DNA from: Lepidurus packardi
Lineage: Eukaryota > Arthropoda > Branchiopoda > Notostraca > Triopsidae
Assembly: GCA_023053545.1 (NCBI GenBank)
Contig: JAKZAN010000040.1
Location: 1 to 64,000 of the forward strand
DNA length: 64,000 nt
Direction of reading: 5' to 3'
The stretch's first letter is position 1; each line of letters begins with the position of its first letter. Positions 15,705-18,691 of the stretch are shown here, piece by piece. Made by a program: the position numbers and the translations under genes. Below the pieces are notes generated by a model. It ran no database searches. It worked only from the letters and a program-made list of their open reading frames with translations, and was not told the DNA's origin.

Positions 15705-18691
15705 ATGGGACGCAAAAAGATTCAGATCTCTCGGATTACCGATGAAAGAAATCGACAGGTAAAACCAGTTTAAATTTTTTTAGTTTTTTGTGTCTTATAG
15801 TCGAAAAATGGGAAGGGAAGGTAAGTAAACTGAAGGGGAACAGGTCTGTGACTATCGTTTACTCGTTTAAAGGCCACGGTCATCTCCGCTCGTGTTATCG
15901 GAGAGGATGTGACAGGTGTGACGTCATCCAGGTGGGCGAATCACCATGACGACCATCGATCTTGTTACTTTTGCTTACATTCCCCCCCCCCCCCCCCTAC
16001 CCCCCTCCTTAAATCCTAAAGACGTTCCAACACCCCCAAATTCATCCCTAGATCCTCCCTTTGCCTAGCCACTTTTATCCGAAAATGTTTTCTGGGAAGA
16101 AGACGGAATTTTAATTTAGTGGTTTTTATTTTCACCCACCAAGAGCCTTGTTGCTCCACTTTACAGATCTTTCAACACGAAGTGGAGTTTAAATGTCAGC
16201 TTGAAACTTGGTTATCTAGCCCTAAAAGAATCTTGATGTCGAAATATTACATGGAATAATTAGTACCAAGCTTTTACACTGCCAAGGGCAGCAAAACATT
16301 ATTTCCACGGGAAGCTTACTAGGCTCAAAAATTTATAACGCTAGATGAAGTGCAAGAAGTTTTGAGGGAAAATTTTCAAACTTTCACGGGGAACATCTTA
16401 TGTTTATATTGTCGCATCTATTACAACATCTGGAAAGCGTAGAAGCTAGAAAGATACTATTTATGCAATAAAATGAGAAAACCCTTCTTCAGAATTGTAT
16501 TAATCTCTAGGTTACGTTTAATAAGCGTAAATTCGGGGTGATGAAGAAGGCGTATGAATTGAGCGTCTTATGCGATTGCGAAATCGCGTTAATCATCTTC
16601 TCGTCATCCAATAAGCTGTATCAGTACGCGTCTACGGATATGGATAAAGTGCTTCTAAAATATACGGAATATAATGAGCCCCATGAATCGCTCACCAACA
16701 AGAATATAATAGAGGTGATTTTGCCAGAGCCAAGTTTTTATGTTGAAAACTTGTAGTTAACCCACTTTTTCGTTTGGTTCTTTTTCTGTTGTTTTCCTTA
16801 GCTACGCGTTTCTTAGCGACTGCGAATGCAATTATTTGGTTCGGGTTTGATTTTCATTGTTGACTACCCTACCCTGGACGCCATCTTGTTTTTTGAAAAA
16901 CGTGTTCGCTGTGCTCCAAACCAACACAACTAACCTTTGCATGGCGTGTCGTTGTTTCTTGTTTAACCCGTAGGTGACGTTTACGAAGCGCAAGTTTGGT
17001 TTGATGAAAAAAGCCTACGAGCTGAGTGTGCTGTGCGACTGTGAAATCGCTTTAATCATCTTCTCGTCCTCCAACAAACTCTTCCAGTATGCCTCCACCG
17101 ACATGGACAAAGTGCTGCTTAAGTATACGGAGTATAACGAACCGCACGAGTCCAGAACTAACAACGATATCGTCGAGGTAGTTTTTTGTCCGTTTGAAGT
17201 GACATTTTACCGCATGTTTTTTTCTAGCTTTTTAAGTTCTTGTCATTTTACCTCCCTTTAAAGTAGCGCGAAATAGTATTGCTAATATTTTTTTTCTTTT
17301 GCTGGGCGATTCTGTATAGGCTTTAAGCAAGAAAGAACACAAGAACGGAGGCTGCAGTCCAGATTCTCCAGGAGAAGAAGCCGATACCAATGATTATACT
17401 TTAACACCACGGACTGAAGCGAAATATAGCAAAATTGACGAAGAGTTCCAGATGATGATGCAACGAACCCAGCATTTGAACGGCGGGAATAGGGTAAAAA
17501 AAAAAACGAAACAAAATTTTTCTGCCAACTTTTTTTTTTTTTAATAAAAAAAAATCCCTTTCGTATTAATGGCAGGTTCCTTTGACCCAATCAAGCTACG
17601 GCTTATCTTCAGCTTATGGGGACGGCTCAGCCACCAGTTTGCTGCACCCCAGTCCTCAAATGGGTCATTCTTTGAGCCCCAGACCGCCCTCAGATGGTAA
17701 ATAACATCCCTTAAAAAATTAAAAAATACTTTGATCTAATTGTTAGCTTCAATACAAGGTTTACTAGAAGTTGGAAGCAACAACGGGTATCCAGCCCCTC
17801 CTTCACCCTTACCCGAAAGCCCGCCTCCATCCAAGTCCATGGGCCGATCTTTGTCTCCTTTACACGGGAGTCATAGTGGCCATCGTCCGCCCCTACGAGT
17901 CGTAATTCCTGGTACTCAGAGTTTGTCTGTCACGCACGAGGTAAACTTACCCGTTTCTTTCCCTTTTCCAGTATGCTTATATATCTATTTAACACTTTTC
18001 TTTTTCAATTTCGTGTAGGGAAATGGTGGGCGGCTTGGTAGTAGCTTAAACACGCCAGTGGTGTCCTTGCAAACGCCTACTATATCTTCATTATATCCTA
18101 CGTATGCCCAAAGCACAAATTCCGGTCAACCCACGGAATTTAACCTATCAGCTGACCTGAACTTGACCTCGTTGCATTCGCCTTGGTCGTCGGGTGCCCC
18201 TTCTAATACTGGCGGTACAACCATGCACGGTCACGTGCCCAATCAAGGCCATATCGGACATTCGTCGTCGTCCATCTCCCATCTTCTTCCTCCCTCGGGC
18301 CCTCCGCGCCCGCCTTCTGCGCCTCAGTCGCCTATTCAACTTAAAATCAAATCAGAACCCATCAGTCCGCAAAGAGAAGCCTTAGGCGTCTTGGCGGCTC
18401 GTGGACAAAATCAAATCGCAGCCTCTAACATCATGGCAGGACTTATGCCTCCCAGACCGTCTTCTACAACCGAGCATCTTTCCCCTGGAGGGCATTTATC
18501 AAGTACAAAGCTATCAAAATTTAGTGTTGCTAAAAGATGATCCATTTTAACTAGCTTCTTTTCTCAAAATTCCTTAATCAGGTTCACCAACAGAAAGTCA
18601 TGGGCATGGACACGGGCATTCAGGGCATGAATACGACTCGGGACCTCTGCATAAGCGGTCACGTATTAGCGAAGGTTGGTCTGCATCCTAA
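15705..18691 (+). CDS. Mef2: MEF2 MADS-box transcription factor
   Basis: DNA-binding activator of muscle and neuronal genes. Coding exons: 15705-15758, then either 16511-16714 or 16974-17177, then 17320-17493, 17576-17696, 17747-17940, 18019-18502 and 18582-18691. With one copy of the alternative exon the frame closes at 446 residues, normal for MEF2. Residues 1-86 are the MADS box plus MEF2 domain ([18 protein letters not shown], then [15 protein letters not shown] and [20 protein letters not shown]). The activation region carries the conserved sumoylation/phosphorylation switch [11 protein letters not shown]. The C-terminus, [12 protein letters not shown], matches the usual MEF2 tail. An acceptor at 15666 shows a 5' UTR intron, so first exons lie upstream. 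A polyadenylation hexamer sits at 18706-18711. Reading through the last intron gives an alternative tail stopping at 18540. Confidence 0.97.
16511..16714 (+). other. Mef2: MEF2 alternative exon 2, copy A
   Basis: A 204-base, phase-0 exon encoding MEF2 residues 19-86. It differs from copy B at seven residues: Asn22, Val28, Tyr55, Leu79, Lys82, Asn83 and Ile85. It has its own acceptor (TCTCTAG) and donor (GAG|GTGATT). Including both copies in one mRNA would keep frame but duplicate the DNA-binding domain core, so use is presumably mutually exclusive. Confidence 0.9.
16974..17177 (+). other. Mef2: MEF2 alternative exon 2, copy B
   Basis: A 204-base, phase-0 exon with acceptor CCCGTAG and donor GAG|GTAGTT, also encoding residues 19-86. 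This copy is the canonical one: [32 protein letters not shown]. It is more GC-rich and differs from copy A at many synonymous sites. That indicates an old duplication kept by purifying selection rather than an assembly artefact. Confidence 0.93.

Follow-up and report, generated by a model that had tools for sequence, protein, structure and literature searches.

The closest described counterpart of the gene considered here is the MEF2 gene of the shrimp Litopenaeus vannamei (LvMEF2), for which transcript evidence indicates a 'mutually exclusive exon 2' present in two versions, 2a and 2b (Xia et al. 2023; PMC10051702). In that report, 17 transcripts arise from the single gene, and isoforms I and II, each 428 amino acids in length, differ in their expression. 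Isoform I is high in all tissues examined, one isoform being widespread and one restricted, and isoform expression in infection samples is given as high in Oka and not in hemocytes (isoform accessions ANF06985.1 and ANF06987.1 are found in Table 1 of PMC10051702). Vertebrate MEF2 genes, for example Mef2d, carry the alpha1 and alpha2 exons, which are described as mutually exclusive, one being ubiquitous and the other muscle-specific (PMC12592725). Among the ranked extracts of a literature search on MEF2 splicing, MEF2 peptides and the shrimp gene, which covered few subscription journals, there was no further report of this exon 2 swap. Splice variants of Nematostella Mef2 were reportedly described by Genikhovich and Technau in 2011. 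The vertebrate alpha exon begins after residue 86, that is, from residue 87 on.

The window examined in the current study, a stretch of 64,000 nucleotides of Lepidurus packardi DNA, contains a predicted MEF2 gene on its plus strand, whose splice borders and open frame yield six coding exons per form and 422 amino acids with either of two second exons, 2A or 2B (Table 1). As judged by eye, exon 1 likely includes a 5' untranslated part upstream of the ATG. The locus is predicted to encode a MEF2 transcription factor, given that both a MADS box with its MEF2 domain and an HJURP_C region are evident. The SRF-TF (MADS) profile matches the full A form with an E value of 1.9e-24 and the B form, of which the first 144 residues were scanned, with an E value of 9.4e-26, whereas the HJURP_C profile (PF12347) matches after the MEF2 domain in the two forms at 7.9e-08 and 9.2e-09, the second of these again from the 144-residue scan. 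Both forms also give 94-residue alignments to MEF2A and MEF2C chains in the PDB. The HJURP_C region is said to occur in all MEF2 proteins except vertebrate MEF2B and one of two Nematostella genes.

Table 1. Predicted features of the MEF2 gene (positions are those of the window)
Feature	Position	Strand	Description
Coding exon 1	15705..15758	+	Residues 1-18; donor CAG/gtaaaa; aligns with the MEF2A start in PDB
Exon 2A	16511..16714	+	Residues 19-86; N22 V28 Y55 L79 K82 N83 I85; SRF-TF match in the spliced A form
Intron 2A-2B	16715..16973	+	259 nt
Exon 2B	16974..17177	+	Residues 19-86; T22 L28 F55 R79 N82 D83 V85
Exon 3	17320..17493	+	58 aa; in frame with 2A or 2B; bears most of the HJURP_C match
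Exon 4	17576..17696	+	121 nt; from splice borders and open frame
Exon 5	17747..17940	+	194 nt
Exon 6	18019..18540	+	C terminus and stop

Elsewhere in the window, Pfam matches in seven of ten frames between 3028 and 63646 identify neighbours of this gene, namely a piece of a class II tRNA synthetase, NCOA6-like and TMEM198-like proteins, CYFIP (two frames), a cadherin and a calsyntenin. An insulin/IGF-like peptide gene was also noted on the minus strand at 38532-39112, where RLCGSRLADTVRAVCFGKF near 38803 resembles a B chain and GLVDECCLRSCSVRQMQAYC near 38585 an A chain. The latter lies in another frame than the former and is therefore probably encoded by the next exon; a Pfam scan of the B-chain frame alone gave no match.

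Exons 2A and 2B are both 204 nucleotides long, both in phase 0, and each is bounded by its own GT-AG splice sites (ag/GTT...GAG/gtgatt for 2A, ag/GTG...GAG/gtagtt for 2B). A mutually exclusive pair is expected to consist of tandem homologous exons that match in length and phase and have separate splice sites, as is the case here. The coordinates and borders assigned to the pair in the initial annotation are confirmed, as are the seven residue differences that it listed, which our alignment of the two copies recovers as T22N, L28V, F55Y, R79L, N82K, D83N and V85I in the direction from 2B to 2A (7 of 68 residues). At the nucleotide level the copies are identical at 152 of 204 positions (74.5%), with agreement of the proteins at 61 of 68, and the 52 differences are distributed as 6, 3 and 43 over codon positions 1, 2 and 3. 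By the NG86 method there are 43.5 synonymous differences over 44.75 sites, which corresponds to saturation (pS 0.97), and 8.5 nonsynonymous differences over 159.25 sites (dN 0.055). Random synonymous recoding, in which both copies were redrawn from their own codon usage in 5000 draws, predicts a mean identity of 148.9 of 204 positions compared with the 152 observed (p(>=)=0.29), and no silent identity of A and B is left beyond chance. A 17-base block common to both exons (16589-16605 and 17052-17068), which includes a TTA leucine codon, was considered as a splicing element, but it does not reach significance under the same kind of recoding, with p values of 0.15 (the run itself), 0.07 (best 25-base window) and 0.11 (best 35-base window).

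Saturation of the silent sites argues against an allelic origin, against recent duplication and against recent gene conversion across most of the exon, and in combination with the constraint on the protein it strongly favours the use of both exons. The many synonymous differences and long retention by selection that had been claimed for the pair are thus well founded, and by its sequence we judge it to be an old pair kept by selection and not an assembly duplicate. As exon use is read here from genome sequence, one might propose that one of the exons is dead or goes unused. However, at silent saturation such a copy should have lost its frame, its splice sites and its protein sequence, and yet the residue agreement and the scarcity of nonsynonymous differences noted above indicate otherwise, such that we regard this proposal as very unlikely.

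Direct repeats of at least 20 nucleotides between positions 15001 and 19000 form a single family, which consists of A and B and extends 11 bases upstream and 8 bases downstream of the exons, and a loose tblastn search detected no third copy of the exon in the 64-kb window. The assembly that was searched comprises 108,557,554 bases (108.6 Mb) in 344 contigs, with approximately 77 Mb in the six contigs designated C1 to C6. Of the six matches of an assembly-wide MEF2 search, A and B account for two, another two lie on C5 and are read as SRF, and those on C97 and C122 are ciliate-like. A second search gave three matches, all at this locus, and MEF2 exon matches therefore occur at this locus only among the best candidates scored. 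Other contigs encoding the B peptide were also sought in collections of bacterial/archaeal and viral contigs, where none of the 55 and 6 pattern matches, respectively, proved to be a relative.

Chitin_bind_4 is an arthropod cuticle family, and its 150 listed matches (the best 150 of 266 candidates) all fall on C1-C6, whose arthropod origin is thereby supported. The contig that includes the window (C31, 86.8 kb) has a base-word composition with a mean divergence of 0.0093-0.0161 over eight 10-kb pieces, compared with 0.0105-0.0296 over ten pieces of C1-C6, and thus falls inside that range or slightly under it. The ciliate-like contigs C97 and C122, at 0.0217 and 0.0244, also fall inside the C1-C6 range owing to one piece of C6, and therefore this comparison carries little weight; a better argument is that the only MEF2 match of the assembly is on C31. 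An assembly artefact, wherein two haplotypes or paralogues were placed in tandem, might be suspected because the gene is located on a contig of this size instead of one of the six large ones, and because foreign, ciliate-like contigs are present. Nevertheless, 74.5% identity and silent saturation are far beyond allelic divergence, the repeat ends 11 and 8 bases into the flanking introns, and no other MEF2 exon matches were found in the assembly among the best candidates scored, all of which makes an artefact exceedingly unlikely.

Several other features of the assembly were observed. At C97:67850 and C122:40676 there are MADS-box genes that, as judged by eye, contain short introns and TAG codons within the reading frame, a pattern known from ciliates in which TAG specifies an amino acid, and the assembly appears to contain ciliate DNA. 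On C1, seven homeobox matches on one strand span about 150 kb (1,556,756-1,709,273), with an eighth at 1837847, in what looks like a compact Hox cluster. The first 10 kb of C20 and of C40 (approximately 249 kb each) have an extreme base-word composition, with a GC content of 0.256 and 0.316, which suggests satellite arrays. Among the contigs sampled, C7, C10 and C32 are each exactly 25,000 bases in length.

The two copies differ in the proteins they resemble. Exon 2B agrees at 66 of 68 residues with MEF2A chain 7xuz_C, which we take to be the vertebrate protein, the mismatches being at positions 49 and 82, whereas 2A agrees at 60 of 68. At the seven variable sites, B matches this chain six times (22, 28, 55, 79, 83 and 85) and A not once. 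Drosophila MEF2 carries N22, V28, Y55, L79, K82, N83 and I85, and thus matches copy A at 7 of 7 sites; more than one version of the residue 19-86 exon is not known in that species. None of 18 structure matches was labelled as a fly protein, and a short-peptide search of papers for the fly residues returned B-type strings only. Copy A had been described as the version that changes the protein, which is accurate insofar as A carries the changes and B is vertebrate-like, but A is no freak form, since it matches the fly at all seven sites.

Given these fly residues, the A states would be derived and would predate the separation of crustaceans from insects, and B would be ancestral. We therefore infer that 2B keeps the ancestral, vertebrate-like sequence and that 2A bears derived states held in common with the fly protein. 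On this view the pair probably goes back a long way within Pancrustacea and the ancestral exon was probably lost in the lineage of the fly, and an ancient pair followed by such a loss is the simplest reading of the data. A duplication confined to the present lineage, with the likeness to shrimp and fly states arising through parallel change, also has to be weighed. Tandem exon duplication recurs in many genes, and the likeness to shrimp is one of exon arrangement. However, this course of events would require one copy to have reverted to vertebrate-like residues at about six positions, or the other to have arrived at seven fly states, in either case independently, and we consider it unlikely. 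Regarding the ancient pair, we lean slightly towards a fuller account in which the duplication predates the crustacean/insect split, one exon stayed ancestral and the other acquired seven changes, fly MEF2 corresponds to the derived isoform, and crustaceans switch between the 'vertebrate-like' and the 'fly-like' form by tissue and stage.

In the proposed scheme of expression, each mature mRNA would normally carry 2A or 2B joined between exon 1 and exon 3, which would yield two 422-residue proteins that have exon 1 and everything past residue 86 in common and that differ at seven positions in the MADS box and MEF2 domain. According to the gene model, a transcript that includes both A and B stays open (490 amino acids), as does one that skips both (354 amino acids). 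Nonsense-mediated decay would therefore not enforce exclusion. Incompatible splice types are a further known mechanism, and both exons have GT-AG borders. An intervening intron of 259 bases is probably too long for simple steric exclusion, which we thus consider unlikely. Competing pairing among introns was assessed for three intron pairs, but 78, 26 and 18 of 100 shuffles attained the observed duplexfold energies (a measure that is not strictly local), which provides nothing convincing, and the best ungapped stems were reached by 36, 4 and 29 of 60 shuffles of single bases in 50-base blocks, with nothing clear emerging. The best single pairing lead joins 16441 and 17219 in a 14-base stem; 4 of 60 shuffles did as well, in one of the three pairs tried, and the stem would loop out both exons. 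Likewise, the idea that 2A and 2B have weaker donors was dropped when a hand count against the U1 consensus revealed no difference from other exons. This leaves regulation by a trans-acting splicing factor as the way in which exclusion might be achieved.

Mutual exclusion of 2A and 2B is proposed here by analogy with the shrimp gene. The phases would equally permit both exons to be included constitutively to give a MEF2 protein with a duplicated MADS/MEF2 core, and the frame of such a product is open. However, dimer formation would presumably suffer from a second MADS core in the chain, each copy keeps its register to exons 1 and 3, and the shrimp exons are reported to be mutually exclusive (PMC10051702), and so we judge constitutive inclusion to be highly improbable. 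The best joint explanation, which we hold to be quite probable, is that 2A and 2B are alternative second coding exons of an old pair, 2B being ancestral and 2A fly-like, from which two 422-residue MEF2 proteins are made. The proposal in the initial annotation that one gene could make two MEF2 proteins is supported in so far as the exons are duplicated, diverged and long retained, and could provide the gene with two MEF2 DNA-binding domains.

The initial annotation assigned residues 22 and 28 to the DNA-contacting arm, an assignment we do not retain. In MEF2 structures both lie instead in helix H1, which follows the N-terminal arm. This agrees with a review that places K23, the neighbour of residue 22 (T in B, N in A), in helix H1, where it makes a DNA contact at the edge of the binding site; the preference for DNA shape is altered by R15G and K23R, both in that helix (PMC10178880). 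Thr20, which is identical in A and B, is a phosphorylation site of fly and mammalian MEF2 (PMC5399178).

Residue 83 is located in the helix-H3 region, probably along with its neighbours at 79-85. Helix H3 contributes to DNA binding by presenting positive charge to the DNA and also stabilises helix H1, and the MEF2B substitution D83V turns H3 into a strand (PMC10178880); D83V also lowers DNA binding, as does deletion of residues 77-80 in MEF2C (PMC4918335). Two points argue against a large effect: the consequence of H3 loss for DNA binding is called modest (PMC10178880), and the physiological relevance of some H3 conformations is considered doubtful (PMC6639411). Moreover, copy A has D83N, a different substitution from the D83V described in lymphoma. 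Going from B to A, the changes remove R79 and D83 and introduce K82, a net charge change of +1. A small shift in DNA affinity or in the choice of cofactor between the A and B proteins is plausible, and a functional difference would act through helix H1 (22 and 28) and, more likely, through the helix-H3 region (79, 82, 83 and 85). Since the fly lives with the A states, A would be a working form of the protein.

MEF2 is highly conserved in animals, and its DNA-binding domain is usually taken as invariant. An old and maintained switch inside this domain would constitute a natural test of which residues tune the choice of DNA or cofactor. The exon pair could also explain why insect MEF2 differs from vertebrate MEF2 at the end of the MEF2 domain, and if the pair is indeed old, the only exon of the fly would be its derived member.

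Against the known systems, the locus compares as follows. By the exon boundary given above, vertebrates swap the exon after the MEF2 domain, whereas the exon duplicated here covers residues 19-86, and thus most of the DNA-binding domain. The initial annotation was therefore justified in separating it from the vertebrate alpha swap. What the two would have in common is mutually exclusive exons within a MEF2 gene, as is stated for the vertebrate pair (PMC12592725). Nematostella, to go by the title of the paper on its Mef2, provides a further case of alternative splicing of an invertebrate MEF2. Drosophila MEF2 has the exon 2A states at all seven sites and is not known to have more than one version of this exon. 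The greatest likeness is to LvMEF2, in that a single MEF2 gene has exon 2 as a duplicated exon in two versions and produces isoforms of equal length (428 amino acids in shrimp, 422 here). There is also a weak parallel in isoelectric point, which is higher for isoform I in shrimp (8.95 versus 8.82) and for the A form here (9.26 versus 9.19). In contrast, most shrimp transcripts have seven coding exons, and exons 4 and 5 of that gene use alternative splice sites, whereas six coding exons are predicted per form here. The likeness is one of gene arrangement. The novelty implied in the initial annotation does not hold, because a mutually exclusive exon 2 was published for shrimp in 2023 (PMC10051702). 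The exon swap itself is already known, credit for it belongs to that study, and the present pair is a further instance of the shrimp arrangement. What looks to be new is the polarity, with what look like a vertebrate-type exon and a fly-type exon side by side in one gene.
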